Part shown: positions 14,973-60,534 of the stretch, piece after piece | Layout of the letters: each line of letters opens with the position of its first letter | Numbering within the stretch: position 1 is the stretch's first letter | Virus record (IMG/VR): IMGVR_UViG_3300046167_000317 | Location: 1-61,626 of that record | Source: a virus | Reading direction: 5' to 3' (one strand) | Length of the DNA stretch: 61,626 nt | Translations under genes and position numbers: made by a program | Notes under the pieces: model-generated | What the model was told of the DNA's origin: nothing | The model's input: only the letters and a program-made list of their open reading frames with translations | Databases searched by the model: none

Positions 14973-15229
14973 TGAAAGCGATTAATTATTACATAGTTAT
15001 AGACAAGATAAAAGAAGCTCCTAAAAAAGTTGGGGGTATCGAATTAACCGAAAAGCAGGATAGCGACATTAGGTACTTAAAAGGTAAAGTTATAAGTGCT
15101 GGAGATAAAGTTACAGGAATCAAAGAAGGTGATATTATTAGATACGATAAACACGCGGGATTCGGTATAGAGTGGAAAGATAATTTTCATGTTGTTATAA
15201 CTGTTAAAGATGTTGTTATTGTTGAATGA
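14972..15229 (+). CDS. groES: Co-chaperonin GroES (phage-encoded)
   Basis: The 85-residue product is slightly shorter than bacterial GroES. It has the mobile-loop pattern GGIELTEKQDSD followed by the beta-barrel signature YLKGKVISAGD, IKEGDIIRYDKHAG and a C-terminal DVVIVE. It is translationally coupled to GroEL upstream (TAATG) and to the next gene downstream (ATGA). The two together can form a complete chaperonin system. Confidence 0.9.
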   Translation: MKAINYYIVIDKIKEAPKKVGGIELTEKQDSDIRYLKGKVISAGDKVTGIKEGDIIRYDKHAGFGIEWKDNFHVVITVKDVVIVE

Positions 15230-19981: not shown

Positions 19982-20177
19982 TATAGGAAGAGACTATAAA
20001 AATGACGCCATGCACTATGCTGTTGGACAGGAAGTGTATGGCGGTCATACTATAGCTAATATAATAGAAGAAGAAGATAAGTATTCTATATATATAAAAA
20101 AAGGAGATGAGTTATTGCCGTGGAAAGATTTTAATAAAAATATGGCAATTGCAGTTGAATATGATTTGCAATACTAA
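19959..20177 (+). CDS. Small conserved phage protein (72 aa)
   Basis: The pattern SLVRKISIGRDYKNDAMHYA, then GGHTIANIIEEEDKYSIYI, ending AIAVEYDLQY, is familiar from marine phages, always as a short gene of unknown function. The start at the ATG at 19959 lies inside the previous gene. The stop overlaps the next start (TAATG). Confidence 0.65.
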   Translation: MSLVRKISIGRDYKNDAMHYAVGQEVYGGHTIANIIEEEDKYSIYIKKGDELLPWKDFNKNMAIAVEYDLQY

Positions 20178-20767
20178 TGAAAGCTTTATTTGATTTTATT
20201 ATAGAACCCGCAGGGGATAGATATAATAACAAAAAAAAAGTAGAAGGCTCAGAGCTTATTTTAAATACAGAACTTCATAACCATAATTATTCAAACAGGA
20301 TAGCTAAAGTTATAGCTGTACCTTCTGAGATAGAAACAGAAATTGAAGTAGGCGATAAAGTAATAGTGCATCATAATGTTTTTAGGCGATTTAAAGACAT
20401 TAGAGGTATTGAAAAAAACAGTAGGTCATATTATAAAGATAACATATATTTTGCAGGTGAAGACCAAATATATGCTTACAAAAGACGCGGTGATTGGATG
20501 GCTTGCAAAGGTTTTAATTTTGTTAAACCTATTAAAGAAACAAAAATGTTTTCAATTAACTTTGAAAAAGAAGGCGTAGGTGTTTTGTACACAAAAGATC
20601 CAGAACTTAAAGCGTTATCAGAAGGCAACCTAGTAGGCTTTAAGCCAGGGGCAGAGTATGAATTTATTATCGGTAACGATAGAGTTTATAGAGTACCCAC
20701 TAATTCAATTACAATTAAATATGAATATCAAGGAAACGAAGCTGAATATAATCCAAGCTGGACATAA
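20177..20767 (+). CDS. GroES-fold-like conserved phage protein (196 aa)
   Basis: The middle (SNRIAKVIAVPSEIETEIEV, GDKVIVHHNVFRRFKDIRG) has the spacing of the GroES beta-barrel (short strands, then xVGDKVI). A conserved GIEKNSRSYYKDNIYFAGED and a lysine-rich tail domain follow. It could be a second, divergent co-chaperonin, or simply share the fold. It lies directly before the terminase genes and overlaps the next gene by 47 nt. Confidence 0.5.
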   Translation: MKALFDFIIEPAGDRYNNKKKVEGSELILNTELHNHNYSNRIAKVIAVPSEIETEIEVGDKVIVHHNVFRRFKDIRGIEKNSRSYYKDNIYFAGEDQIYAYKRRGDWMACKGFNFVKPIKETKMFSINFEKEGVGVLYTKDPELKALSEGNLVGFKPGAEYEFIIGNDRVYRVPTNSITIKYEYQGNEAEYNPSWT

Positions 20768-41078: not shown

Positions 41079-44000
41079 ATGAACGAACAAGCTTTACAAG
41101 ACTCGTTTAAGTTATTTCAATCACAAGGTTACTCAGGTGATATAAATGCTTATAAAGAATTAATATCAACTAATGATGAGGCATTTAACGATGCCTATTC
41201 ATTATTTAGCAATAGCGGATATAAAGGCGGCGAAGGTGCTTTTAAAGGCCTTATGGGTATTAATGTAGTGGGAAAGACAAACGACTCTGCGGTTGCGGAT
41301 CCAAATGCGGAGTCAAGCCAAGAAGGTACGGGATCCAAATCGGGAGATGGTTCATTGGAATCAGCTCAAGAGGATAAAGGTTTTTTAGCGGGATTAAAAA
41401 ATTACGGCGAAATTGGCAATAAAATATTTGAACTCACAGGAGGTCCTGCTGGTTTTATAGCTGGGACTGTAGTAGATGGAGGAAAAAAAGCTGTAAAATT
41501 TTTAAGTGGGGCAATAGACAATATACAGGAGCGCGTAGTGGATGAGCCTGTAGAGGTGCCAACAGATGCAAGTTCAGAATACCTTATGGGTAGAGGATTT
41601 GCTTCTAATCCAAGCGGGTTTTTTGAAAGCGCCTATGACGGAATACCAGGAGCTGCAAATACTACCATAAATTTGTTGTATGGTAACATGAAAGACATAG
41701 AGGAAGCTTCTGCTATAATAGGAGCGGGTCTTTATTTACAGGCTAAAAAAGGTGAACTTGGTTTGTCTAGCGAGGAAAGAATAGAGGTAGCTAACTCTGT
41801 AAAAGCTGCTATTAAAGTGAAAGACTCTATAATTGATAAAAAAAATAAAGAATTATTAGAATCTGTAGGAATGAGCGGCATATCTCCTTACATATATGCT
41901 TCTAGAGAAAACCTTCAAGAAATAGAAGATAAGTTGTTAAAAAACCAAAAGCAATATGACACTGCTATATCTGAAGAAATACTAAAAGGAACAGATGCTA
42001 ATTGGGCTGAAATCGGAGGAAGAACTTTAGGTGGTGCTTTAACAAGTGCTCCTTACAGTCTTATGTCTATGAATCCATACTCTGCTGCCTATATGGGTGT
42101 TGGTATTGCTGCAGATAAATTTGTAGAAGAAATTGATGAAAACCCTGATAGAGCATTTTGGAAACTATCAGGAGCAGCTGCAACTACAGGGGGAATTGAA
42201 ATGGCTGACGCTTGGGTTTCAAGAAGGTTACTAAGAGCCAAAGGTTTTTTACCTAAAGGCAAAGGAGCTGAAAAAGCAATTGAGCAAATGAATAGGGGTA
42301 TTGGCGGAAAGCTTAAAGATATTATTGGTATTGGAGCAAAAGAAGGTCTTACAGAAGTAGGGCAGGCTATTGGGACTAAAATAAGCGATTACCTTTGGCT
42401 AGACGAATTGCCAGGTCAAGATGAAGAAGGAAATGTAACTAAAAAAGGGTTGCTCAAAACAGCATATGAAATAGTAGACGAAGGTATAATCGGAGCATTT
42501 TCAGGCGGTGGTATGGCTTCTGTTGGAGCGGCAGTTCAAGGCAATGACGCTTTGAACGAAAGAGCTAAATTTTTACTTACGCCTGAGTATATAAAAGATG
42601 ATCGTAAAAAACTTTATGACGAATATATTGGTAGGGCAGCAAAGATAAAAGAGGCTAGAGACAGCGGCAACAACAGAAGAGCTGGTGCTTTACAGGACAT
42701 TAATGACAGGCTTGGAATAAAAATTAATAAATTAGACATAACTAGTTCTTTGGTTTTAGATAATCTTACTCAAGAAGAGCTTACTGAATATGCTAGAAAT
42801 GTAGATAAAATAAATGCCCTTCTTGACGGAAAAGTAGATAACGCATTACAAAATGACGTACAAACTTTACAAGATCAAAACAATGATATATTTGACAAAG
42901 CCTTAAAAAGAAATTTTGGCGAGAATATGTCGTTTGCTCAAGCAGCGGCCGCTCAAGTTGGACTAACTACTACTGTTGTTGACAATGCAGCAGATTTTAA
43001 TAAGTTAATAAAAGATCCAAAAACAGGAAAATTCATAACTAATAAAGACGGAGTTGCCGGGGCTTTTATTGGCGGAGGGCAGCTTATAATAAATAAAGAA
43101 ATTGCTTTACAACAAGGAGATGTTACTGTAGGTAGCCATGAAGTATTACACCCTATTTTAAACGCTATGATTGGTGATATAAACCAACAAATGCCTATTG
43201 TAGAGGAATTTAAAAAGCAATTAAACTCTAGAGAAAAAAAATGGGTTGAAAATGAGTTAAAGAGAAAAGGTAAGAAAAAAGGAACCGCGGAATACTACGG
43301 GGAATATTTAACCGTTTACTCAGAAGGCTTAGTAAATAACAATATAAACTTTGACAATACAACTTTTGAAAACTTAAAACAATTTTTTACAAGATTGTAC
43401 AAAGGCAAAGGATTTGATAATATAGATTTTAAAACAGGTAGAGGAGTTTATAACTTCATGTCGGCTTACGGTAAAAGTGTGCAAGAAGGCAAATTATCTG
43501 AAGACGTTTTAAGCGCTATAGACGCAAAAAAGGTAGCAACTGTAGAAGCCGTAGATGACACTCAGTTTTCAAAAACATTATCAGACGACGTTAAGGCTAC
43601 CTTATCAGATAACATAACAGAAATAAAAAATCTTGCAAAAGAAAACGCTGAAATAGCTGCTAAGTTTAATAAAGAGCCTATTAAAGGAGCTAAACAAATA
43701 AGATTAGAAAGAGAAGTTATTGAAGGGGTAAAGCCTTTGGTTGAAAAGATTGTTACAAATCGTACAAAAGCGTTGTATGACAAAATAGCAGATGATGCTA
43801 AAAGAGGCGTTACAAGAGAACAGTTTCAAGAATCAATGCGAGCTGATATTGAAACAATGATCCTTAATGAATACGACGCCACTAAGCAAGACCTTGAAAA
43901 GTTTACGGTAAGCAGAGCGTATTTAAGAGCTAACAATTTAGCTAAACGTTTAGGAATAGAATCGGTAGAAGAAGGCGGTATCAAGCAAGATATAGACACT

Positions 44001-47000
44001 GCTAAAGGCATTACAGAAGAAAAAACTACAACTACAAAACCTAAAGAACCTTCTGTAGAAAGAGGGCAAGCTACATTTGACGAGCTTGACATTGTTGATG
44101 ATGCTTTAATTGAAGATATTAAATCTGAGCTTGAAAAAGAAATAAGGACTAGGGTTCAAAAGGGTACATTAGCAGAAACTGTTTCTGTTAAAAAAGGTAG
44201 AGAAACTTATATTGTTTCTTGGCTAGAAAATTATGTTAACAAGCAGCTATTTAAAAAGCTTCTTAAGAAAGTAGGTGCAATTAAAGGAACATACCCCAAT
44301 ACTATAATACCTACCGCATACATTGACTTTTTACAAGACCCTAAAACTTTTGATATTATAACAAAAGCTTTACCTATTAAAAGTATAAAGAAAAGTTACG
44401 GTAAGCTATTTGAAATAGAGCGTATAGGCAGAGAGGTTACTGCAGAAGGTAATCCTGTATTTAGAATAAAGAAAATTAATAAGACTAAGTTTTTTAAATA
44501 TTTTGTTGAAGGAAAAAAATCAACTGTATTAGAAAGGCAAAAACAATTATTCAGAGAAATATTAACACCTATAGCAAAACAAGCAGTGGCTGATTATGCG
44601 ACCCCTGAAAATCTTGCAAATCTTAATGAAATAAAAAACTTAGCACCTGATGCTTCTTTGGATGTTCAAGCAGATATTATTTTGGAAGCACAATTAGAAA
44701 ATCTTGAAAGTCAATTAGATAGGTATAAAGGCGAAAAAACAGGTTTTGACATTATACAATTTTCTAAAACTGTTACCGCTGAGCAAAAACAAAAAATATC
44801 TAATGCTTTAAATCCTTTATTAGATACGCCTTCTAATAATGATTTTAAATATTCTGTTGTATTAGATATATTAAATGGATTAAATGATGTTAAAACATTT
44901 GAAGATTTAGCCGATTTAATTTGGAATGCAGGAAATACCACACTTAGTGTTACGTCGTTAAGAGAATATAGAGTTGAGCTATTGAGCTTATTAGCTAATA
45001 AGTTAAACTATACTGATACAGTTAAGTTTTTAATTAGTGCAATTAATAAATATCAAAAAGTTTATAAATATCAACAAAAAGTTATTGGCTATGATTATTC
45101 TTTAGCTAACTTTAAATCTGATTTTTCAACAGCAAACAATATTGAAGCAAAAGTTAAAGTTGTAGAGGAATTTTTAAAATACATCAGCAGGTCTATACGT
45201 ACTTTAAAAATTAACGATATTACTAAAAACTCTGATGTATATAACAAAATAATAAAACCAGTTCTTGGAGATCCTAAAAAGTACCGTATTACTTTAGAAA
45301 TAGACAAGCAAAAAAATAGATCTTATATATTAAAAAATAATATTAGATTACAAGGGCTAACTGATATTACAAGAATTAAATCAGATTTTAGCAAAAATGT
45401 TGCTGCTATAAATAAAGAAGCAGTTGAAGTGCGTGAATGGCTTTTAAATGAAGCTAAAAAAGCACAAACTAATAATGACGTAGATTCTTTTGTAGGTCAA
45501 CTTTCTTTAATGTCTGCAGACCAACGTGGTGTAATACGTAAAATGAACAACGCGGGGTTTGCTTTTAAAAACGTTAAAGTAGCCGATGCTATATTAGAGC
45601 ATGAGACTGAAGCTTTTGAAGTATTTAATGCCTGGAAAGATTTTGCTGAAGGTAAAATAACAGAAAATAAATTAAATAAATTTTTAGACGGAGCTAAAGT
45701 GAATCTTGTTCCAAAAAGTTTTGATAATTTACTTAAAAAAGTACAAAAAGAAAAAGGTTGGCGCGGCAAAGCTAGGTACTCTGATCCGCGGGTTAAAAAA
45801 TATATTGCAAAAGCAAAACAAAACGGAGATATAATACAGTTTTCTAAAACAAATAGAGATTTTGACACTTTTGGTATGGCTGATATTATTAGTCGACAAA
45901 TGTTTCCTAATGCTTTTGTAAATAAACCCAGTTATGCTCAGGGTTATGACTATTTAACCCCAAAACAACAAGACGCCGTTAAAGCTGAAATGAAAAATGC
46001 TAATCTTATTCAATTTAGCAAAACACTAAATAAAGCTAAAGCTATGGTCAACAGACCTGACGCCCCTGTTAAAGGTATTAGTGTTTGGGATTTTGACGAT
46101 ACATTAGCTACAACTAAAAGCAATGTATTGTACACAATGCCTGATGGCACCAAAGGAAAGATAGACGCTACTGAGTTTGCTTTAAATAGTGAAGCATTAG
46201 CGGCTCAGGGTGCTGAGTTTGATTTCAGCGAATTTAGCAAGGTTATGGAGGGCGCTAAAGGCCCTCTGTTCGATAAAGCCATTGCTCGTAATAAAAAATT
46301 CGGCAACGATAACGTATTTATTTTAACTGCCCGACCTGCGAATTCAAAATATGCTATACACGAATTTTTAAAAGGTATTGGCTTAGATATTAAATTAGAA
46401 AATATATTTGGACTAGGCGATGGCACAGCTATTGCTAAAGCTAAGTGGGTAATTGGGAAAGTAGCTGAAGGTTACAATGATTTTTACTTTGCAGATGACG
46501 CATATAAAAACGTACAAGCGGTACAAGAAGTTTTAGAGCAAGCGGATGTTAAGTCTAAAGTTCACCAAGCTAAAGTACAATTTTCTAAAAACTTAAACAA
46601 AGAGTTTAATAACATAATAGAAGATGTCACAGGTATTGAATCCTTTAAAACTTTTTCAGAAGCTAAAGGCAAAGTAAGAGGTCAAGGTAAAGGTAAGTTT
46701 AAATTCTTTATTCCGCCATCTGCAGATGATTTTGCAGGTTTATTATATAAGCTCACGGGTAAAGGTAAAACAGGTGAGGCACAGCAGGCTTGGTTTAAAG
46801 AGTCTCTGTTTGATCCGTTCGCTAAAGCTATGCGTGAATTCGAAAGCTATAAACAAAACGTGACAGGGATCGTTAATCAGCTTAAAAAAGATATTAAAAA
46901 CGTTCCTTCTGGATTGAAAAAAGTTAATGAAACCGGATTTACAAATGAAGTTGCCGTAAGAGTTTATTTATGGGCAAAGAATGGTTATGATATTAATGGC

Positions 47001-48632
47001 TTATCTGAAACAGATAAAAAAGAGTTAATCGCTGTAGTACAAGCTAATCAAGATTTATTAGATTTTGCTGACCAAATGGATTCTGTTTTAGAAGGATATC
47101 CGGAGCCGCAAAATGACTGGCTAGCCGGTACAATTACTACTGATGCCATTAACATGATTAATACCGTTAAGAGAGCTGAGTTTTTAGAGGCATGGCAAAA
47201 TAACGCTGACGCAATATTTACTAAAGAAAACTTTAATAAGCTTAGGGCAGCATTTGGTGATAATTATGTAGAAGCAATGCAGGATATGCTCTATAGAATG
47301 AAGACTGGTAGAAACAGACCTTCAGGAGCTAACAAGCTAACAAATAAATTTATGAACTGGGTTAACGATTCAGTTGGTACAATAATGTTCTTTAATACTA
47401 GATCAGCATTGTTACAAACGTTATCTATTGTTAACTTTATAAACTGGGGTGATAATAATCCTATGGCTGCGGCTAAAGCTTTTGCAAATCAAAAACAATT
47501 CTGGAGTGACTTCGCAATGTTGTTTAACTCTGATTTCTTAAAGCAAAGAAGATCAGGATTAAAGAATGATGTAAATGCCGATGACATCGCTAACGCTGCA
47601 GAAACTGCTACTAATAAAACAAAAGCCGTATTATCCTCTATACTTAAAATGGGATTCTTGCCCACGCAGATAGCTGATAGTTTTGCTATTGCAATAGGTG
47701 GCGCTAGTTTTGTTAGAAACAGAATAAATAAATATGTTTCTGAAGGAATGGACAAACAAGCTGCAGAAGAGCAAGCGTTTTTAGATTTTCAAGAAGTAGC
47801 TGAAGAGACTCAGCAGTCTTCAAGACCTGACAGAGTATCGCAGCAGCAAGCAAGTCCATTAGGTCGTATCATATTAGCTTTTGCAAATACACCTATGCAG
47901 TACATGCGATTAACTAAAAAAGCCTTTTTAGACCTTAAGAATGGCCGAGGAGATGCTAAAACTAATATAACAAAGATAGCTTATTATATGGCTGTTCAGA
48001 ATATTATATTTTCAGCTTTACAATCCGCGTTGTTTGCTGGTTTATTTGACGACGACGAAGAAGCTTTAGATAACAAGAAAACTAGAGTGGCTAACTCTAT
48101 GTTAGATTCTATATTAAGAGGTGTTGGTGTTTATGGTGCTATTGCTTCTACCCTTAAAAATATAGCTATAGAAATCAAAACTCAAGCAGAAAAAGATAGG
48201 CCAGACTTTACAGTAGCAGCTCAAAGAGCATTAAGCATATCTCCTCCAATTGATTCTAAAATGCGTAAATTAATGGGAGCAGGTAGAGCATTTAGTTATA
48301 AAACTACTCGCGAAAAAATGGTAGGTTACGGATTAGATAATCCAGCTTTTTATGCAGGCGGTCAAATTGTATCTGCTTTAACTAACGTGCCTTTAGATAG
48401 AGCTATTAGAAAAGCGGATAACCTTAGAGTCGCGGTTGATAACGATACAAAATACTGGCAATCATTAGCATTGCTACTAGGTTATAGCCAATGGGATTTA
48501 GGGCTTATAGAACCAAGTAAAAGCAAAAGTAAAAGTAAAGGTAAAAGTAAAAGACCATTTGGAGGTACCTTAAAATACAAGCCTTCCAGATTAACAAGAA
48601 AAGATCTTATAAAAATAAAAAGAAAAAAATAA
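41079..48632 (+). CDS. Giant multidomain virion protein with HExxH and HAD-like segments (2517 aa)
   Basis: The N-terminus has two copies of a LFQSQGYSGDINAYKELI-type repeat. A zinc-protease-like HEVLH lies at 687-691 (VGSHEVLHPILNAMIG). Five QFSK motifs follow at about 829, 1227, 1587, 1645 and 1834. Between the last two lies an HAD-phosphatase-like domain: DFDDT (1671-1675), ILTARP (about 1747) and FYFADDAYKN (about 1805). The C-terminal third is helical with hydrophobic stretches (NIIFSALQSALFAGLF) and ends Lys/Ser-rich. This resembles the large polyvalent or ejection proteins carried inside podovirus heads and injected with the DNA. Confidence 0.75.
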   Translation: MNEQALQDSFKLFQSQGYSGDINAYKELISTNDEAFNDAYSLFSNSGYKGGEGAFKGLMGINVVGKTNDSAVADPNAESSQEGTGSKSGDGSLESAQEDKGFLAGLKNYGEIGNKIFELTGGPAGFIAGTVVDGGKKAVKFLSGAIDNIQERVVDEPVEVPTDASSEYLMGRGFASNPSGFFESAYDGIPGAANTTINLLYGNMKDIEEASAIIGAGLYLQAKKGELGLSSEERIEVANSVKAAIKVKDSIIDKKNKELLESVGMSGISPYIYASRENLQEIEDKLLKNQKQYDTAISEEILKGTDANWAEIGGRTLGGALTSAPYSLMSMNPYSAAYMGVGIAADKFVEEIDENPDRAFWKLSGAAATTGGIEMADAWVSRRLLRAKGFLPKGKGAEKAIEQMNRGIGGKLKDIIGIGAKEGLTEVGQAIGTKISDYLWLDELPGQDEEGNVTKKGLLKTAYEIVDEGIIGAFSGGGMASVGAAVQGNDALNERAKFLLTPEYIKDDRKKLYDEYIGRAAKIKEARDSGNNRRAGALQDINDRLGIKINKLDITSSLVLDNLTQEELTEYARNVDKINALLDGKVDNALQNDVQTLQDQNNDIFDKALKRNFGENMSFAQAAAAQVGLTTTVVDNAADFNKLIKDPKTGKFITNKDGVAGAFIGGGQLIINKEIALQQGDVTVGSHEVLHPILNAMIGDINQQMPIVEEFKKQLNSREKKWVENELKRKGKKKGTAEYYGEYLTVYSEGLVNNNINFDNTTFENLKQFFTRLYKGKGFDNIDFKTGRGVYNFMSAYGKSVQEGKLSEDVLSAIDAKKVATVEAVDDTQFSKTLSDDVKATLSDNITEIKNLAKENAEIAAKFNKEPIKGAKQIRLEREVIEGVKPLVEKIVTNRTKALYDKIADDAKRGVTREQFQESMRADIETMILNEYDATKQDLEKFTVSRAYLRANNLAKRLGIESVEEGGIKQDIDTAKGITEEKTTTTKPKEPSVERGQATFDELDIVDDALIEDIKSELEKEIRTRVQKGTLAETVSVKKGRETYIVSWLENYVNKQLFKKLLKKVGAIKGTYPNTIIPTAYIDFLQDPKTFDIITKALPIKSIKKSYGKLFEIERIGREVTAEGNPVFRIKKINKTKFFKYFVEGKKSTVLERQKQLFREILTPIAKQAVADYATPENLANLNEIKNLAPDASLDVQADIILEAQLENLESQLDRYKGEKTGFDIIQFSKTVTAEQKQKISNALNPLLDTPSNNDFKYSVVLDILNGLNDVKTFEDLADLIWNAGNTTLSVTSLREYRVELLSLLANKLNYTDTVKFLISAINKYQKVYKYQQKVIGYDYSLANFKSDFSTANNIEAKVKVVEEFLKYISRSIRTLKINDITKNSDVYNKIIKPVLGDPKKYRITLEIDKQKNRSYILKNNIRLQGLTDITRIKSDFSKNVAAINKEAVEVREWLLNEAKKAQTNNDVDSFVGQLSLMSADQRGVIRKMNNAGFAFKNVKVADAILEHETEAFEVFNAWKDFAEGKITENKLNKFLDGAKVNLVPKSFDNLLKKVQKEKGWRGKARYSDPRVKKYIAKAKQNGDIIQFSKTNRDFDTFGMADIISRQMFPNAFVNKPSYAQGYDYLTPKQQDAVKAEMKNANLIQFSKTLNKAKAMVNRPDAPVKGISVWDFDDTLATTKSNVLYTMPDGTKGKIDATEFALNSEALAAQGAEFDFSEFSKVMEGAKGPLFDKAIARNKKFGNDNVFILTARPANSKYAIHEFLKGIGLDIKLENIFGLGDGTAIAKAKWVIGKVAEGYNDFYFADDAYKNVQAVQEVLEQADVKSKVHQAKVQFSKNLNKEFNNIIEDVTGIESFKTFSEAKGKVRGQGKGKFKFFIPPSADDFAGLLYKLTGKGKTGEAQQAWFKESLFDPFAKAMREFESYKQNVTGIVNQLKKDIKNVPSGLKKVNETGFTNEVAVRVYLWAKNGYDINGLSETDKKELIAVVQANQDLLDFADQMDSVLEGYPEPQNDWLAGTITTDAINMINTVKRAEFLEAWQNNADAIFTKENFNKLRAAFGDNYVEAMQDMLYRMKTGRNRPSGANKLTNKFMNWVNDSVGTIMFFNTRSALLQTLSIVNFINWGDNNPMAAAKAFANQKQFWSDFAMLFNSDFLKQRRSGLKNDVNADDIANAAETATNKTKAVLSSILKMGFLPTQIADSFAIAIGGASFVRNRINKYVSEGMDKQAAEEQAFLDFQEVAEETQQSSRPDRVSQQQASPLGRIILAFANTPMQYMRLTKKAFLDLKNGRGDAKTNITKIAYYMAVQNIIFSALQSALFAGLFDDDEEALDNKKTRVANSMLDSILRGVGVYGAIASTLKNIAIEIKTQAEKDRPDFTVAAQRALSISPPIDSKMRKLMGAGRAFSYKTTREKMVGYGLDNPAFYAGGQIVSALTNVPLDRAIRKADNLRVAVDNDTKYWQSLALLLGYSQWDLGLIEPSKSKSKSKGKSKRPFGGTLKYKPSRLTRKDLIKIKRKK

Positions 48633-49635: not shown

Positions 49636-49662
49636 AACTAACTAACTAACTAACTAACTAAC
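49636..49662. repeat. Tandem tetranucleotide repeat overlapping the nrdA stop codon
   Basis: AACT is repeated nearly seven times, 27 bp in total. On the minus strand it reads (GTTA)n and contains TAG stop codons in all frames, including the true stop of the ribonucleotide reductase large subunit at 49658-49660. Confidence 0.8.
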
Positions 49663-51376
49663 CATCACACGCAATACAATCTTCACTCATTGCTTGCTGT
49701 GCAATATCTCCACGTAGAACGCTTTCTGTTCTCGTATAATATAAAGTCTTAACTCCGTTTTTCCAAGCATCAAAGTGTACTTTGTTAAGCCACTTAGGTG
49801 TTGCTTCACTAGGAAAAGCTAAATTCAAACTAACTGATTGATCTATATACTGCTGTCGCAGTCCAGCTTGATTGACTAACTCTAATTGGTTAATCTCTTT
49901 AAACGTTTTAAACACTTCCTTCGCAGGTATATCGTGTCCCATAGTAATCCCATCAAGCTCAGGTATATCTTGAACGCTACCGCCATCGGCAAGTATTTTA
50001 TTCCATATTTCATTATTATTAATTTTATGTTTTCTTAATAATTTTAAAAGCGTAGGATTCTTTCTAATAAAAGTTCCTTTAGCCGATTGTTCAGTAAATA
50101 CATTAGCAGCCCAAGGTTCAATACCCGCGCTTACGTTTCCAGAGAGCTTACTATTAGAGACAGTAGGAGCAACGGCGCGCAAATGAGTATTGCGGTAGCC
50201 AGTGCCAGCACACCACAAAGGCTCACCATAAGTTTCAGCAAGCGCCATGGAAGCTCTTTCGCTTTCAATTTTAATTTGCGAAAATATTTTCCTAGTCTCA
50301 AACTGAGATAATAGACCTTCGAAAGGAATACCCTTCTCTTGTAAGTAAGTGTGCCAGCCGAGGACTCCCAATCCCAATGCTCTCCCTTTCTGTGCAGATC
50401 GTATAGAATTCTCGAATCCGCGTAATCCCTTCGCCCTTTGAATAAATTCTTCCATAACACCGTCAAGAAACCATATGGCGTCGTAAATAAGGTTAGTGTC
50501 TTTCCATTCTTCATATTTTGCTAAGTTTAATGATGATAAGCAACAGACAAAGCTGTGATTCTCATCGGTGTGTAATGCAATTTCTGAACATATGTTCGTC
50601 ATATGTACTTTTAATCCGTTTTCTTTATATGCTTTTGGATTTGCTTTGTTAACATTGCCTTTAAACATGATATACGGTTCTCCAGTTGCTTTTCGCTTTC
50701 TAAGTAGTTTACTCCATCTATTTCTAGCATCCTTATCTCCTTGTTCAAGCTTACGCATAAACTTGTCACCAACAACTGCGCATTGATGTAAATTAAGCGA
50801 CTGTCTGTTAACATCTCCTTTTGGCTCTCTGATTTCAAGCCATTCTTCAAAATCGTCGTGCTCAATATTAATGTTAACTGAAGCAGCTCCTCTTCTGACA
50901 GATCCTTGATTAGTTGCAAGAATTGTTGAGTCGTATATCTTGCAGAATGGGACGACCCCATCTGATGTTCCATTACCTGTAATTTTAGCGCCAGCGGGTC
51001 TAATTTGATTAACTCCAATACCAACTCCACCGCCGTGCTTAGCGAGTAGCATCATCTCTAAATTCTTTTGTCCTATGTCTTGTATACTATCAGCCACGTC
51101 AATACCAAAGCAACTGATAGGCAAACCGCGATCAGTGCCTGTATTAGATAATACTGGGCTAGCGAGGCAAAGCCACCCATTCCAGATGTACTCGAAGAAA
51201 GTTTCTGCCATTTCTGGCTTATATAATCTACGAGCAACTGTTTTACTGACGCGCATGTATGCTTCTCTAGGTGACTCTCCGTCAAATAAATATCCCCCGG
51301 ATATTGTCTTCTTGTATACGTCCGTATTACCCCACGCAGGGTAATCTTCTCCTTTTTTCCAATTTTCATTCCACAT
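49658..51376 (-). CDS. nrdA: Ribonucleotide reductase, class I large subunit
   Basis: The 572-residue protein carries the catalytic residues of class I alpha subunits. They are Cys89 in LPISCFG, Asn261/Cys263/Glu265 in MTNICSEIALHT, a partner Cys in FVCCLSSLNL, and a C-terminal Cys pair (CIACDG) for re-reduction. It reduces ribonucleoside diphosphates to deoxyribonucleotides with NrdB. It is about 190 residues shorter than E. coli NrdA and has no N-terminal ATP-cone, so overall activity control by dATP is probably absent. It is the last gene of the leftward arm. Confidence 0.9.
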   Translation of the reverse strand: MWNENWKKGEDYPAWGNTDVYKKTISGGYLFDGESPREAYMRVSKTVARRLYKPEMAETFFEYIWNGWLCLASPVLSNTGTDRGLPISCFGIDVADSIQDIGQKNLEMMLLAKHGGGVGIGVNQIRPAGAKITGNGTSDGVVPFCKIYDSTILATNQGSVRRGAASVNINIEHDDFEEWLEIREPKGDVNRQSLNLHQCAVVGDKFMRKLEQGDKDARNRWSKLLRKRKATGEPYIMFKGNVNKANPKAYKENGLKVHMTNICSEIALHTDENHSFVCCLSSLNLAKYEEWKDTNLIYDAIWFLDGVMEEFIQRAKGLRGFENSIRSAQKGRALGLGVLGWHTYLQEKGIPFEGLLSQFETRKIFSQIKIESERASMALAETYGEPLWCAGTGYRNTHLRAVAPTVSNSKLSGNVSAGIEPWAANVFTEQSAKGTFIRKNPTLLKLLRKHKINNNEIWNKILADGGSVQDIPELDGITMGHDIPAKEVFKTFKEINQLELVNQAGLRQQYIDQSVSLNLAFPSEATPKWLNKVHFDAWKNGVKTLYYTRTESVLRGDIAQQAMSEDCIACDG

Positions 51377-52031: not shown

Positions 52032-53000
52032 TTACCAAATGTCTTCAAAGTCTTCGCCTTCCCCAGCTTTCGAGTAATCCGTTGGCCTAGTGGCGAAAAA
52101 ATCAGTATGAGTGACCCCGCCGGTAAGATGATAGAACCAATCAAGATTGCCTGCTGCTTTGGTGTCATACGCAAAATACGAACCCAAGTCAACGTAACCA
52201 AGTTCCACAAGTTTTTCATTTGTTCTCTTTTTTATAAAGTGTTTTAAATCATTAGCTGATATACCTTCAATATCACCAGCTTCAAACATTTTGTCAATAT
52301 ATTTAGTTTCTAACTTAATCATAGTTTCCGCGGCTTTTATTATATCTTCTCGACATAAGTTCAGCAATTGTCCATTTTCACTGCACATATCGCGAAATAG
52401 TTTACAACCCATTTTACTATGTAAGCTTTCATCCCTTACGGACCATTTCATTTGCTGTCCAATACCTTTAAGCAAATTGCGTAGCTGAAAAGAATAAAGC
52501 ACTGCAAAAGCAGAATACAAGCTAACTCCTTCAGCGAATGCAGAGAAGACAGCAAGCGACTTAGCAATGCCAATTGGATCATTGCCATCGTAAGCAACAA
52601 GATTATCAAAACGAGCAGCCGTAGCAGGCTCATGTAAAAATGCCTCATAATCTTCTAGTTTTAATGTTTCGTTTAAATAACTATACGCTACCGCGTGAAT
52701 AGTTTCTTGTGATCCGAACATCATAGCCATTTGTTGTATTTCATGCTTAGGGAACCAACCAACTACTTTCTGTGTCCAATAATCCGATACCGCACACTCC
52801 GTCTGTGCAAAGCCAAGTAAAATGTTACCGACCAGGTTTTTTTCTTTATCATCTAATTTTTCGTTCCAATCTTTAATATCACTTTGCATCGATATTTCGG
52901 TGTGCAACCAAAATGCCTGTGCTTGTTTTAACCAACCTTCTGTGTAGTACTCAGGGTACTCAAAAGGCTTATAAGCTACTCTTTCGTCAAATAATCCCAT
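52032..53000 (-). CDS. nrdB: Ribonucleotide reductase, class I small subunit
   Basis: The 322-residue beta subunit has the diiron ligands Glu68 (AQTECAV), Glu99 and His102 (GSQETIHAVAY), Glu157 (FAEGVSLY), and Glu191 and His194 (RDESLHSKMG). It also has a Tyr106 at the radical position, so a tyrosyl-radical enzyme is expected. The first ligand is Glu instead of the Asp of E. coli NrdB. It ends with the acidic tail EGEDFEDIW, which in this family docks the large subunit. Its ATG overlaps the TAA of the preceding small gene. Confidence 0.9.
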   Translation of the reverse strand: MGLFDERVAYKPFEYPEYYTEGWLKQAQAFWLHTEISMQSDIKDWNEKLDDKEKNLVGNILLGFAQTECAVSDYWTQKVVGWFPKHEIQQMAMMFGSQETIHAVAYSYLNETLKLEDYEAFLHEPATAARFDNLVAYDGNDPIGIAKSLAVFSAFAEGVSLYSAFAVLYSFQLRNLLKGIGQQMKWSVRDESLHSKMGCKLFRDMCSENGQLLNLCREDIIKAAETMIKLETKYIDKMFEAGDIEGISANDLKHFIKKRTNEKLVELGYVDLGSYFAYDTKAAGNLDWFYHLTGGVTHTDFFATRPTDYSKAGEGEDFEDIW

Positions 53001-53630: not shown

Positions 53631-54055
53631 TCTTTTTGATTTTGTGGTTTGTATAATGTAGTTCCTGGAAATTGTTTAACAATTAATTGTTTAAATAACT
53701 TCCAGCGCATAGGAAAACTTTCGTTTGCTCTACCTTTAGTTTCTATAATAAAATCATCGCCAATAAAATCAGGAGTGTATTTAATAGGTAAGATACGTTT
53801 GCAACCCCTATTTTTGTAATCGCCTTTTCCATTAGCCTGTCTTTCGTATACTTCGTTATCAAAATGAAAGCCGTTAAGTAAAACAAAAGTTTCTCCTTCA
53901 TATTTAGCTTTTATTTTAGCCTTCTTTAAAGCCATATACATATAACGTTCTAGCCCTGAGGCGAAGTTGATGCCATCATATGACACCTTCTTCGACTGCA
54001 CTGGGCCTCGTTTTTTGCTTTTTCTTTTATAAGGTTTCCGTCTCATGTACTTCAA
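53585..54055 (-). CDS. Endonuclease with a PD-(D/E)xK fold, DUF1064-like
   Basis: The 156-residue protein has a basic N-terminus (KYMRRKPYKRKSKKRG), then SGLERYMYMALKKAKIKAKY, YTPDFIGDDFIIETKGRANE and a helix with MRWKLFKQLIVKQF. The Glu of GLERY, Asp of TPDF and ETKG are the spaced acidic and Lys residues of a restriction-type nuclease, as in DUF1064 or Holliday-junction nucleases. It may resolve recombination or packaging intermediates, or degrade host DNA. A second Met three codons on is an equally good start. Confidence 0.7.
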   Translation of the reverse strand: MKYMRRKPYKRKSKKRGPVQSKKVSYDGINFASGLERYMYMALKKAKIKAKYEGETFVLLNGFHFDNEVYERQANGKGDYKNRGCKRILPIKYTPDFIGDDFIIETKGRANESFPMRWKLFKQLIVKQFPGTTLYKPQNQKECDETISIILSKRKE

Positions 54056-54290
54056 TATTTTTTAAAGCTGCCTCTTGAATATCCTCTGTATAAACTTCTT
54101 TAGCTTTTTGAAGATACAACACAGCATCCATTAATTCTTCTTGTAAATGATTAAGCCAAGCAAACATATTAGATGGGTCGTCTCTTAGTGTTACACCATA
54201 TTTTGCAAAGCCTACATCAGATCTTGATACAAACTTATCAACAACACGTTCAACAACTGGATCTCTAAATTCTATTTGTTTTTTACTCAT
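54027..54290 (-). CDS. Conserved helical phage protein, possibly NTP-pyrophosphohydrolase-like (87 aa)
   Basis: The protein shows DPVVERVVDKFVSRSDVGFA, KYGVTLRDDPSNMF and AWLNHLQEELMDAVLYLQKA. The EELMDAVLYL helix resembles the metal-binding helix of all-alpha NTP pyrophosphatases, but the second helix motif is not evident. The family is common in marine phages. Its start overlaps the stop of the MazG-fusion gene (ATGA). Confidence 0.6.
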   Translation of the reverse strand: MSKKQIEFRDPVVERVVDKFVSRSDVGFAKYGVTLRDDPSNMFAWLNHLQEELMDAVLYLQKAKEVYTEDIQEAALKNIEVHETETL

Positions 54291-55060
54291 AGTGTTTCTT
54301 TTACAAATGTTCCGTTAATCATTTTACCTTTGCGATTAGCTATTTCATTGTATGCTGAATCAATACAGTTTTCTATATCAAAACCTTCTAGCTTTGCTAG
54401 GTTTGTTAATACAACAACAATATCGCCAATTGCATCTACAATTTCTGGTTTATCATCATTAAGCAATGCAGCTGCTAGTTCACCAGCCTCTTCCATTAGT
54501 TTAACATATTGCGTTTGAGAATTACCTTTGTCGTATATACCTCTTTCATTAGCCCAAGATCTTATAAGATCAAATCGCGAGGGTAAAGGATAAGGTTGAG
54601 GCGTATGCTTAGGATTAAAAAATGCTTCATAGAAAGCTTTGTTGTAAATGTAGCTTCGGTTTTCGTTAAACATTGAAGTTCTAGCATTAGCCATTATCCA
54701 AGGTATGTTTTCTTTAGTTATTTTGAACTTACCGTTAGATGTTTCCCAACTTAAGTCTAAATTGTCCATTAATCTACCTTTCAGTTTATCTAATGGACAC
54801 GGGAATGTTGACGTCTGCTCTGTAGCGTTTATTTTCATTTTTTTGTTTTTATTAATTAAATTTGTATAAGATTGTCGGTCGACTTTATAGCCGTAAGACT
54901 TTTGAAGTTCTAACTCCATAGCTGACACATAATCAATGTCATCACTAGTAAGTAGAACTTCGTATTCGCCTGGTGCATAACCTTGTTGCACTGTAACTCT
55001 TTTATTAAGATTACGTGTAACGCCAATTTTTTTACCAGGAATGTGATAAATGTTGTACAT
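54287..55060 (-). CDS. Fusion of a GIY-YIG-like domain and a MazG-like NTP pyrophosphohydrolase (257 aa)
   Basis: Residues 1-70 (YNIYHIPGKKIGVTRNLNKR, then SDDIDYVSAMELELQ) have the layout of a GIY-YIG nuclease, but the two triplets are degenerate (IYH and KIGVT), so catalysis is uncertain. The middle part (about 95-150) is unknown. The C-terminus (185-257) is MazG-like: EEAGELAAAL with Glu190, Glu191 and Glu194, then EIVDAIGD with Glu206 and Asp209 as Mg ligands. MazG enzymes hydrolyse NTPs or ppGpp-type signals in infected cells. Confidence 0.65.
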   Translation of the reverse strand: MYNIYHIPGKKIGVTRNLNKRVTVQQGYAPGEYEVLLTSDDIDYVSAMELELQKSYGYKVDRQSYTNLINKNKKMKINATEQTSTFPCPLDKLKGRLMDNLDLSWETSNGKFKITKENIPWIMANARTSMFNENRSYIYNKAFYEAFFNPKHTPQPYPLPSRFDLIRSWANERGIYDKGNSQTQYVKLMEEAGELAAALLNDDKPEIVDAIGDIVVVLTNLAKLEGFDIENCIDSAYNEIANRKGKMINGTFVKETL

Positions 55061-55068
55061 AATTGTTT

Positions 55069-55917
55069 TTATTTACCAACACTCAGCTCTGCTTTTATTG
55101 CAGGATAAGGATTGTAGTTAATTAATTTAATTGTATTAGCTGTAGGTATATATATTTCTCCGCCATATTGGGTACATGAATATATGCCTGGTGTTTTATA
55201 TATGCCTTGGTCTAATTGTAATTTAGGCAGTATTCTTTTTGGTCTATCTAAATATACTTGAGCTTGTTCTAAATGATTATTATACAAATGACAATCACCA
55301 AGCTGACCTATAAGCTGTCCTGCTTTTAATCCAGCGCCCTTAGCTAACATTTCTAATAGTAAGCCGTACATAGTTATATCATAAGGCAAACCTAAAAACA
55401 CATCAGCTGAACGTTGCTGCCACATTAAATCTAAAACACCGTTGTTAATGTAAACTTGAAATCCATAATGACACGGCGGTAAAGCCATATCAGGCATATC
55501 AGCCGGGTTCCAAGCGTTGATCATAAGACGTCTAGAATTTGGATTAGTAGTTATGCTATACACAAGTTGTTCAAGCTGATCTACGCCGTTAAAATCGCGC
55601 CATTGCTTGCCATATACAGGACCAAGCGTTTCATCTGTTCTGCCTGAACGTTCATAATCAGGTCTCCAGTATTTAACACCATTATCTTCTAAATACTTAA
55701 GATCAGTCCTACCATTCAATATCCAAAGCAGTTCAGTTCTTGCTGCATTGAAGCTTATCTTCTTTCCTGTAAGTATAGGGAAGCCCAGTGACATATCGTG
55801 TCTAATCGTTCTTCCGAAGACAGACTTCGTCCCCGTGCCTGTTCGATCTTCTTTATCCAATCCTCTGTCGAGTATTTCTGATATAAGTCTTTTGTATTCA
55901 TTTTCTATGTTTGTCAT
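55069..55917 (-). CDS. thyA: Thymidylate-synthase-family enzyme with Asp at the dUMP/dCMP selector position
   Basis: I place the start at the Met at 55917 (MTNIENEYKRLISEILDRGL), where ThyA homology begins; this overlaps the upstream gene by 20 nt. The 282 residues include the folate/dUMP-site motifs DRTGTGTKSVFG, GPVYGKQWR, the nucleophile Cys149 (LPPCHYG), Arg169 and Asp172 (QQRSADVFLG) and LGDCHLYNNH. The residue corresponding to E. coli Asn177 is Asp180 (GLPYDITMYG). Asn there contacts the uracil; Asp is found in dCMP hydroxymethylase and turns ThyA toward dCMP, so the natural product may be 5-methyl- or 5-hydroxymethyl-dCMP. Confidence 0.85.
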   Translation of the reverse strand: MTNIENEYKRLISEILDRGLDKEDRTGTGTKSVFGRTIRHDMSLGFPILTGKKISFNAARTELLWILNGRTDLKYLEDNGVKYWRPDYERSGRTDETLGPVYGKQWRDFNGVDQLEQLVYSITTNPNSRRLMINAWNPADMPDMALPPCHYGFQVYINNGVLDLMWQQRSADVFLGLPYDITMYGLLLEMLAKGAGLKAGQLIGQLGDCHLYNNHLEQAQVYLDRPKRILPKLQLDQGIYKTPGIYSCTQYGGEIYIPTANTIKLINYNPYPAIKAELSVGK

Positions 55918-56158
55918 AATAGTATTTACAATATTCAAATATTTTTGTCCATATTTCTGTTTTGCCATATGTTTCTGGGCTGGTGTGAGTTCTATCTTTG
56001 CTCCGTATATCAATATACCATTGCGTTGGGGAATAAGCCTTAGGGGCAATAGCTATTTGATTTCTAACACACCATCTATATGCTTTCCATAATTCAGGAT
56101 CCATTGAGGGTTTACCCATATCAATAGCGCCTTTCTTTTTTTTAGATCCACTACCCAT
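55898..56158 (-). CDS. Small phage protein of unknown function (86 aa)
   Basis: After a Lys-rich start (GSGSKKKKGAIDMGKPS) the protein continues MDPELWKAYRWCVRNQIAIA, PKAYSPTQWYIDI, and ends TEIWTKIFEYCKYYYDKHRK. The body resembles a small phage family I have seen only as hypothetical. It begins one base after the primase-helicase stop and overlaps ThyA by 20 nt. Confidence 0.65.
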   Translation of the reverse strand: MGSGSKKKKGAIDMGKPSMDPELWKAYRWCVRNQIAIAPKAYSPTQWYIDIRSKDRTHTSPETYGKTEIWTKIFEYCKYYYDKHRK

Positions 56159-57868
56159 TTATTCCCACGGCATTTTTTCACCAGATACGTTTATCTGTTC
56201 GTGAGGTATAAAGCATCCTGATTTTGGTTCCCACTTGAAGTGAGCTTCAGCTCCATTCTCGCCAAGGTTTTGAAACTTAACTTTTAAAACTTTAGCTTTA
56301 ACTGTTTTAGCTTCGTAATCCCTGTGGACTAATAAACCATGATAGCTAGCGTCATACCATTCGCCGCCTCCTTTGATATTATACATTGTAGGCTCTTCAA
56401 TTTTACCATCACTACCTTTGTACATTTTAGTTGGATGAGCTACCACGAATACAAGCACATCGTACTTTTTAGCAAAGATTTCAATCTTGCTTAAGTACTC
56501 CATAGTATAACGATTAACATCTTCAGTCTTACAATCAACATCTCTTACTTTGTTAAATGGATCAATAACTAAGCATTTAATACCTTTACGCTTAACCAGC
56601 TCAGCCCCTTTACGCAACACAGAATCTAATGTGTAACGTTCCATATCAATGTGAAAGTAGTTACTATTACAATGATCTGCTACTTGATTCCATTTATCTC
56701 CTCCGATATCATCTCTAGTTGGCATACCTTGCCAATGCTTACGCATTAACTTATGAGCGTGTAAATAAGTCGGTACATTTTCTGGCGACGCAAACGCTGT
56801 TTTCCATCCGTAGTTATTATTATATCCGACAACCATCTGATCGACGAAATCACTCTTACCGGAACTAGGAATACCAGTAACAGTAATGAATTGACCAGTG
56901 TAAGTTGAGAAGATATCATCAAAATTTTCAAGGCCAACTTGGAATCCTGGTTTAAAGCCATTCTTAACAAAGTCGGTAACTTCATCTTCAATATCCCTGA
57001 ATGTTGTAACATTCTCAAGCGGTACTGGTCTTGCTCCCGAAATACGCTCTGATAATTTTTCTTTTCCATACTTTTGTAAATATTCATTTGCATCTTTACA
57101 GTCTTCAAACGATGCCAAGTAGCATACTTCAGATCCTAGTCTTCTAACTAGCTCTGCTTGTAAAGCCATACCAGCTTCGTCTGTGTCTACAGCCAATATG
57201 ATTTTTTCTTTGTCTTCGAAATAATCTATACAAGCATCTAAATAATCAAGGTTATTACTATTTAATGTAGCTCCGTTTGGAACTGATATCGCATTTGTTA
57301 TGCCAGCTTCATGGAGCGCAAGCACATCCATTTCGCCTTCAACAATAACACAATACTCATAACCTATTATACTATTTATATTATAAAATACTTTTTCAGC
57401 ACCCTTATATAATTTAAAGTTCTTTCGTCCATCGCGATACTTAACGTTGATAAGTTGATCGCCCATGAAGTAATTAAACTTTATAACGTTCTCGGTTTTA
57501 CCGGTCTGGGGCATATACTCAGGACCCTCACCAATCTTAAGATCAGTGAGAGTTTGCTGAGATATTCCTCTAGTTTTAAACCACTCAACTACTTTGCTAG
57601 CTGGAGGTTTATGTACAACCTCTGCAGGTCTTACATATACCTTTTCACTAGCACCTTTACGCTGATACGTATGTAGTTGAAATGATGTATTACAGTTGTG
57701 ACAAGTACCGAGACCCCGATCCCAATCATAAGACGCACATTTAGCCTTTTGATTCTTGGGTTTTCTATCAGGGGAACAAAGAGGACATATGCCCTGCTTC
57801 TTTCCCTCTTCAAGCTTATGTTGATTGAACTCGTCAATCAAAAATCCATTGATCTCTGTTGTCTGCAT
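56159..57868 (-). CDS. Primase-helicase, T7 gp4/Twinkle type
   Basis: The 569-residue protein has, in order, a zinc-binding primase domain (CPLC at 28-31, CHNC at 56-59), a TOPRIM domain (VIVEGEMDVLAL at about 174-185; VDTDEAG at 227-233), and a RecA-type DnaB-like helicase domain with Walker A GIPSSGKS (332-339) and Walker B LVIDPFNKV (about 430). It unwinds DNA and lays down primers at the replication fork. It is expressed with SSB and nucleotide genes from promoter copy 9. Confidence 0.9.
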   Translation of the reverse strand: MQTTEINGFLIDEFNQHKLEEGKKQGICPLCSPDRKPKNQKAKCASYDWDRGLGTCHNCNTSFQLHTYQRKGASEKVYVRPAEVVHKPPASKVVEWFKTRGISQQTLTDLKIGEGPEYMPQTGKTENVIKFNYFMGDQLINVKYRDGRKNFKLYKGAEKVFYNINSIIGYEYCVIVEGEMDVLALHEAGITNAISVPNGATLNSNNLDYLDACIDYFEDKEKIILAVDTDEAGMALQAELVRRLGSEVCYLASFEDCKDANEYLQKYGKEKLSERISGARPVPLENVTTFRDIEDEVTDFVKNGFKPGFQVGLENFDDIFSTYTGQFITVTGIPSSGKSDFVDQMVVGYNNNYGWKTAFASPENVPTYLHAHKLMRKHWQGMPTRDDIGGDKWNQVADHCNSNYFHIDMERYTLDSVLRKGAELVKRKGIKCLVIDPFNKVRDVDCKTEDVNRYTMEYLSKIEIFAKKYDVLVFVVAHPTKMYKGSDGKIEEPTMYNIKGGGEWYDASYHGLLVHRDYEAKTVKAKVLKVKFQNLGENGAEAHFKWEPKSGCFIPHEQINVSGEKMPWE

Positions 57869-59784: not shown

Positions 59785-60534
59785 TTAAAGATAATCAATT
59801 ACTTGGGTGGGATCGGTGTTAGCTATCAACTTGTCAATTGCCTCTCTTTTGATCTGCGAAACACGTACATTTGCAGTGTTTACGTTTATTTTTAGCTTGT
59901 TTGCTATATAGTTAGCAGAATGCTTATCACAATCTAAACCAAAAGATAATCTTAATACTTCGTATTCAATAGGCGTTAAATGCTCTTTCATTAATCCTAA
60001 CAAATAAATATTTAATAAATCTATATTATAAGGTGTTGACTTATCTTCTATTTGATATATAGGATTTTCTTCGTCATTATAATTTTCATCATAGCTTGAA
60101 AATACTGAATTAAAAAATAGTGATACCATTTTATCATCATCAGGGTTTTTACGTATTTGATTTAGCTTATGCTCAGGTATTTTAACATCACCCCGGTTAA
60201 TATCTATTGCGCGTCTTATAGCTCCTTTAATTCTTTTGCTTAAAAAAGATTTTAAAGTTTTTTCAACATCAGACGATTCGTCTATCATTAGCCAATCTAT
60301 TTTATCTACAGCTTTAACTAAGCCTGAGTTACCTTCTTGTATTAAATCGTTAATACTTAATACGCCTGAGGCTTGCTGGGTTGTTGAAAATTTTCTAGCT
60401 AGATTTTCTACCAGTGGCATAAACTTTATTATTAGCTCATCTCTGGTATATTCATCGTAGAACTTTTCAGAAGGTATAGATTTTTTAAGATCCTCTTTGT
60501 ATCTTATGTAATTCTGTACATTATATTTCTTCAT
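59785..60534 (-). CDS. Phage sigma-70-family RNA polymerase sigma factor (249 aa)
   Basis: The N-terminal half has a region-2 layout (ELIIKFMPLVENLARKFSTT, NDLIQEGNSGLVKAVDKIDW, LSKRIKGAIRRAIDINRGDV) and the C-terminal half a region 4 with a helix-turn-helix (LTPIEYEVLRLSFGLDCDKH, then SANYIANKLKINVNTANVRV). It lacks regions 1.1 and most of 3. It should direct host RNA polymerase to phage promoters, possibly the nine 36-bp elements of the leftward arm. Confidence 0.8.
   Translation of the reverse strand: MKKYNVQNYIRYKEDLKKSIPSEKFYDEYTRDELIIKFMPLVENLARKFSTTQQASGVLSINDLIQEGNSGLVKAVDKIDWLMIDESSDVEKTLKSFLSKRIKGAIRRAIDINRGDVKIPEHKLNQIRKNPDDDKMVSLFFNSVFSSYDENYNDEENPIYQIEDKSTPYNIDLLNIYLLGLMKEHLTPIEYEVLRLSFGLDCDKHSANYIANKLKINVNTANVRVSQIKREAIDKLIANTDPTQVIDYL

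Follow-up and report, generated by a model that had tools for sequence, protein, structure and literature searches.

Enzymes of the thymidylate synthase (TS) family that act on dCMP, with Asp at position 177 of E. coli ThyA, are already known, and the marine phage enzyme described here is a variant of them. It is encoded in a 61.6-kb virus record of IMG/VR, the whole of which is referred to below as the window. Replacement of Asn177 by Asp has been reported to switch TS from dUMP to the formation of 5-methyl-dCMP (cited in PMC8670742). The engineered dCMP methylases L. casei TS N229D and E. coli TS N177D carry the same backbone change as the window enzyme, with a complete TS site and tail; the latter differs from them in being natural and fixed in a phage clade, in having the additional changes F176Y and S180M, and in being accompanied by a partner gene. 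When the window enzyme was used as a phmmer query, the mutant chain 1njc scored 224.5 bits versus 222.1 bits for the wild-type chain 1lca.

Among natural systems, phage Xp12 has 5-methylcytosine (5mC) in its DNA (PMC7653180). Enzymes of the Xp12 type, represented here by those of AXL1 and Donnerlittchen, resemble the window enzyme in having Asp177, Tyr176, and an adjoining nucleotide pyrophosphohydrolase gene, but they form a distant, separate branch, have Pro147, Asn143, and Val172, and are accompanied by genes for dihydrofolate reductase (DHFR) and dCMP deaminase, neither of which is found here. Of the Xp12 cassette (pyrophosphohydrolase, dCMP deaminase, and DHFR) the window phage thus has a MazG-type gene only, and homology of this gene to the Xp12-type pyrophosphohydrolase was considered and rejected, as no significant profile match was obtained.

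The dCMP hydroxymethylase of phage T4, gp42, shares with the window enzyme Asp at the base-recognition site, and gp42-like enzymes occupy the same gene slot in sister phages. Hydroxymethylation by gp42 is marked by Asp or Glu three residues before the catalytic Cys, a site at which TS has Leu, by Ser or Thr two residues before Tyr, and by the lack of a C-terminal tail, while a D145N variant of gp42 made no 5-hydroxymethyl-dCMP (PMC6400193). gp42 itself has Asp and Ser at these sites, in contrast to the window enzyme, which moreover keeps the TS tail. Finally, in the MetaGPA study the TS-family genes of cytosine-modified environmental contigs mostly had Asp177, with position 147 also changed, and co-occurred with genes of the PRA-PH/MazG type (PMC8670742). 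Asp177 and this co-occurrence are common to both, but the window clade keeps His147. The text of the MetaGPA paper (PMC8670742) mentions neither a GIY-YIG-MazG fusion nor a slot exchange, and in the open-licence literature searched neither a constant GIY-YIG-MazG partner nor an in-place exchange of methylase and hydroxymethylase types was found.

The ThyA-like enzyme and its predicted product

The window enzyme, a protein of 282 aa encoded at positions 55069–55917 on the minus strand, is predicted to be a dCMP-specific C5-methylase. Its membership in the TS superfamily is established by a match to the PF00303 (Thymidylat_synt) profile (289 bits, cut-off 24.3) and by the presence of the catalytic Cys, Arg, Asp, Glu, and Tyr. 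The residues R21, E58, W80, Y94, R126, R127, L143, C146, H147, R166, S167, D169, L172, G173, H207, and Y209 of E. coli ThyA, which serve in catalysis or nucleotide binding, are all kept, while N177 is changed to Asp180, F176 to Tyr179, and W83 to Asp87, with a further change, S180M (E. coli ThyA numbering), near Asp180. The catalytic Cys149, equivalent to C146, is encoded at 55471–55473 (minus strand); His150 (H147) comes directly after it, and Leu146 (L143) stands three residues before it. The alignment of N177 with Asp180 (codon GAT, 55378–55380, minus strand), put forward in the earlier note together with the pairs C146/C149, R166/R169, and D169/D172, was confirmed; of the constant +3 offset also claimed there, the part from R126 to Y209 holds, while the offset is +4 around R21–W80 and +8 at Y94. 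The window enzyme thus departs from canonical dTMP-forming TS, which has Asn at position 177, and carries the Asp of dCMP-specific members of the family. The position of W83 is occupied by Asp or Asn in the clade, and by Asn also in the TS of T5-like phages and phiAS5, which are Asn177 enzymes.

Asp177 is present in all 81 sequences comprising the window enzyme and its 80 nearest IMG/VR relatives, which were retrieved with peptides not overlapping the Asp motif; they share 60–87% of their residues with the query, and the mean pairwise identity is 0.66. It is encoded by GAT in 72 cases and by GAC in nine. Being fixed in the clade, specified by both synonymous codons, and found by a motif-free search, the residue is due neither to chance nor to error. 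Of the 80 bacterial or archaeal matches closest to the enzyme, Asn is present in 77, the remaining three being short contigs with the gene neighbourhood of this phage. The window clade forms a monophyletic group in a tree, with sisters L231 and L293 that retain Asn, while T4 gp42, the Xp12 type, and others are placed elsewhere, which indicates that the change took place within the ThyA lineage and was not inherited from gp42. An ordinary TS that merely tolerates Asp and converts dUMP to dTMP for an AT-rich phage would fit the TS-like character of every other catalytic residue; fixation of Asp in 81 of 81 enzymes, while the nearest Asn relatives keep Asn, makes this reading highly improbable.

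An unbiased scan with a DNA motif permitting Asn or Asp at position 177 and Phe or Tyr at position 176 revealed at least 118 TS loci, with 95 Asn and 23 Asp enzymes among the matches listed. In the alignment Tyr176 accompanies Asp177 in 22 of 22 Asp rows and Phe176 accompanies Asn177 in 86 of 87 Asn rows, position 176 being limited to Phe or Tyr by the scan itself; the two substitutions thus appear as a coupled change at a folate-contacting residue. In a second clade of ThyA-like Asp enzymes (L207, L211, L241, and relatives) residue 147 is Tyr or Phe; the phages concerned differ in other respects but carry the same partner gene. An independent origin of the two clades, which would have lent the partner association more weight, was considered and is not upheld: although the two are apart in the free tree, their union in a single clade is not rejected by the AU test (p 0.706). 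A ThyA-like protein of Microbacterium phage Eden, gp59 (L173:1474–2367), annotated as thymidylate synthase, has Asp177 with Phe176 and Met147, and its gene adjoins a DHFR gene.

Whether the product would be methylated or hydroxymethylated had been left undecided in the earlier note; the sequence now favours methylation over hydroxymethylation of the T4 type. The site three residues before Cys is Leu146 and not Asp or Glu, the site two residues before Tyr is Pro100 (Pro100-Val-Tyr102 in GPVYG) and not Ser or Thr, and the folate-covering C-terminal tail, NPYPAIKAELSVGK, is present. With Leu146, Pro100, and the full tail, hydride transfer in the manner of TS would be expected, giving 5-methyl-dCMP, and W80, L143, and H147 are kept as well. 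A hydroxymethylase like T4 gp42, forming 5-hydroxymethyl-dCMP, would have the same key Asp, and Asp or Asn here takes the place of W83, a residue restricting the access of water in E. coli TS, a point that counts against a methylase; moreover, true gp42-like enzymes stand in the slot of sister phages, and the same product could have been reached by convergence. Such an activity is nevertheless unlikely in view of Leu146, Pro100, and the tail, given that in gp42 the single change D145N already abolished formation of 5-hydroxymethyl-dCMP (PMC6400193). Two further points speak against the methylase: His147 is kept, whereas the modified environmental contigs are changed at 147 too, and neither DHFR nor dCMP deaminase was found in 30 long contigs (records without end repeats, which may be incomplete), unlike in Xp12-type phages. 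On balance, the window enzyme is probably a dCMP C5-methylase built on a ThyA backbone.

The adjoining GIY-YIG-MazG gene

The partner gene, at 54287–55060 on the minus strand, starts 8 nt past the stop codon of the enzyme gene and codes for GIY-YIG-MazG, a 257-aa protein proposed to be a dCTPase. Its C-terminal part scores 30.4 bits with the MazG profile PF03819 (cut-off 22), PRA-PH also being above cut-off, and the acidic residues E190, E191, E194, D209, and D213 are invariant, so that the profile and the acidic motif together place it among the MazG NTP pyrophosphohydrolases. In the N-terminal domain T5orf172 is matched by 27 and MUG113 by 24 of the 35 family members (E-values up to 0.1, the best 1e-6), both domains belonging to the GIY-YIG superfamily; the match of the window protein itself is weak (E 0.084). 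R21 and E49 of this domain are invariant, and the tyrosine of YIG is Lys, making the motif incomplete. The AF2 model of the partner has a mean pLDDT of 90 and a pTM of 0.43, the latter leaving the arrangement of the domains uncertain. Its structure matches are all MazG-like, including S-2L MazZ, RS21-C6, and DR2231, with weak E-values, and no GIY-YIG fold is among the matches listed.

The nearest MazG folds include members acting on dCTP, on dUTP, and on dGTP/dATP. The MazG domain is a candidate dCTPase that most likely splits dCTP to dCMP and PPi; against this it must be said that many phages devoid of such enzymes likewise have a C-terminal MazG domain and that the substrate is not readable from the sequence. 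In phage T4, the dCTPase gp56 removes dCTP and supplies dCMP beside the dCMP-modifying enzyme. The partner is proposed to do the same job, the comparison being one of function, and differs from gp56 in its extra GIY-YIG-type domain. The GIY-YIG-MazG protein is a candidate bifunctional enzyme.

The partner follows the enzyme gene in all 84 loci of the first set. Among the loci listed from the unbiased scan, each of the 23 with Asp has it on its contig (adjoining in 22, and 8.7 kb away in L223), whereas none of the 95 with Asn does, 900 nt or more of downstream sequence being available for 80 of the latter. The nominal Fisher p of 6e-25 overstates independence, given the common ancestry of the loci and the possible unity of the two ThyA-like Asp clades (AU p 0.706), and the 23 cases therefore do not represent 23 independent events. 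The partner was not found in the nearest Asn relatives, L231 and L293. A reverse search leading outward from the partner is a stronger test than this association. It yielded 154 new loci (some of the contigs overlapping the first set), in 147 of which a TS-family gene adjoins the partner, each time of the Asp type (147/147, with 131 distinct enzyme sequences); in the remaining seven the contig ends 0–240 nt upstream of the partner.

In some phages of the second clade (L211, L226, L247) the partner is devoid of the N-terminal domain. The MazG domain alone was considered as a marker and rejected, such domains being present in hundreds of phages; what is specific to the cassette is the full-length partner and its linkage, and no record of the full-length protein was found in the phage collection. 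The GIY-YIG-MazG gene could serve as a cheap metagenome marker for cytosine-modified phage genomes.

Exchange of the enzyme gene in a conserved slot

The gene order around the enzyme is Erf, RecE, g12, primase-helicase, g6, slot, GIY-YIG-MazG, g4, DUF1064, NrdB, and NrdA. In syntenic phages the slot is filled either by an enzyme of the window type or by a gp42-like one, while the partner remains constant. The 147 enzymes adjoining a partner comprise 27 window-like ones (L143, H147, L172, and the YD pair), 51 ThyA-like ones in which residue 147 is Tyr or Phe, and 69 with Asp143, Thr147, and Tyr or Phe at 172. The last class, ca. 35% identical to T4 gp42, mostly has DTPCT around Cys, SNYG before Tyr, and a short C-terminus, and thereby bears the published signature of a dCMP hydroxymethylase.

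The primase-helicase (56159–57868, minus strand), identified by profile search at the flank of the slot, and NrdB, the small chain of ribonucleotide reductase (52032–53000, minus strand; profile search and gene order), were used as vertical markers. At least 14 changes of class are found on the primase-helicase tree, nine of them forced by well-supported branches, and 20 on the NrdB tree, seven of them forced (both FastTree and approximate), and the occupant of the slot has thus switched at least 7–9 times. Single replacements are visible at the DNA level: L413, of the hydroxymethylase type, is 84–87% identical to L414 and L014, of the window type, on both sides of the slot, and homology breaks over the slot gene only. 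The same break, limited to the slot gene, separates L384 from L385. In L390, a ThyA-like Asp enzyme of the second type lies in the slot and gene order of the window type, constituting a third occupant.

No Asn-type enzyme occupies the slot among the 147. This alternation with gp42-like enzymes, never with an Asn-type one, also tells against an ordinary TS, for which the carriage of ThyX by a related podovirus lacking the gene and the 36% GC of the window could be cited. Repeated exchange that always retains Asp is the best evidence available here for dCMP as the substrate of the window enzyme. The earlier prediction of dCMP specificity is well supported by the invariant Asp, the complete association with the partner, and the in-place exchange with gp42-like enzymes, and, whatever the product, dCMP is very likely to be the substrate. 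The residue, the partner association, and the slot exchange are direct observations on sequences; taken together they suggest that these phages chemically disguise their cytosines and exchange one disguise for another.

Proposed pathway and gene neighbourhood

In the proposed pathway the ribonucleotide reductase, composed of NrdB and of the large chain NrdA (49658–51376, minus strand; profile search and gene order in the conserved block), would provide deoxynucleotides, and the partner would convert dCTP to dCMP and PPi, removing the normal nucleotide and feeding the methylase. The ThyA backbone with the Asn-to-Asp change, coupled with Phe176-to-Tyr, would bind dCMP, transfer the methylene group of methylene-tetrahydrofolate to its C5, and reduce it in the TS fashion to yield 5-methyl-dCMP and dihydrofolate, which in the absence of a phage DHFR would need recycling by the host. 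Host kinases would then raise 5-methyl-dCMP to 5-methyl-dCTP, and replication would insert 5-methylcytosine in the DNA of the phage, shielding it from restriction. The presence of 5mC in the virion DNA may be expected with fair confidence. By changing the occupant of the slot and keeping the partner, a lineage would swap 5mC for 5-hydroxymethylcytosine (5hmC).

Genes for a kinase, a glucosyltransferase, or other modification enzymes were not recognised among the window ORFs scanned by profile, in agreement with the earlier note as to the first two; the GIY-YIG-MazG gene and the exchange slot had escaped that note. No second ThyA was found in the window, and neither a second ThyA nor ThyX in the 30 long contigs. 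The lack of a visible kinase or further modification gene would suit a pathway in which 5-methyl-dCMP, a known substrate of dCMP deaminases, is merely a detour to dTMP through the host dCMP deaminase, with no modification of DNA. That reading is barely credible: no dCMP deaminase was found in the 30 contigs, the 5-hydroxymethyl-dCMP of the alternative slot enzyme offers no route to dTMP, and a partner removing dCTP would be pointless.

T4 endonuclease II cuts unmodified DNA. The GIY-YIG-type domain of the partner might do likewise, a speculative role given its incomplete motif and its weak match in the window protein. A tentative and rather doubtful extension joins these elements into a cytosine-disguise cassette, in which a methylase (5mC) and a hydroxymethylase (5hmC) would be repeatedly exchanged beside a constant GIY-YIG nuclease–dCTPase removing dCTP and destroying DNA with unmodified cytosine, the exchange being driven by modification-dependent restriction that sees only one of the two bases. 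An enzyme with such discrimination is CMoRE, which cuts 5hmC DNA and spares 5mC DNA (PMC12923530). Near-identical phages differing in a single gene should carry different cytosine modifications and so constitute a natural experiment, by which the reasons for a phage's use of one or the other base, 5mC or 5hmC, can be addressed.

Two further genes of the block are small. g6 (55898–56158, minus strand; 86 aa), upstream of the enzyme gene and assigned by conserved gene order, lies outside the proposed chemistry. g4 (54027–54290, minus strand), defined by gene neighbourhood, codes for a conserved protein of 87 aa for which the search found no family, and is present also in relatives without the dCMP enzyme.

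The relatives of the window phage by terminase are the Manatee Spring podovirus MW202828 (63%), the Flavobacterium elemo phages (46%), and Cellulophaga phages. MW202828, the nearest of them, carries ThyX, an FAD-dependent thymidylate synthase (L300:29958–30632), and has neither a ThyA-like enzyme nor GIY-YIG-MazG. Adjoining GroEL-like and GroES-like genes were recognised by sequence at 13419–15229 of the window, GroEL and GroES being encoded also by the related elemo phages and MW202828, and a second, longer GroES-like match (phrog_13932) lies at 20177–20767, just upstream of the terminase gene. A sigma-70-like factor (region 2 and a weak region 4) is encoded at 59785–60534 and kept in 34 loci of the clade, and a virion protein of 2517 aa (41079–48632) has in its middle a HAD-like stretch, VWDFDDTLATT, noticed by eye.
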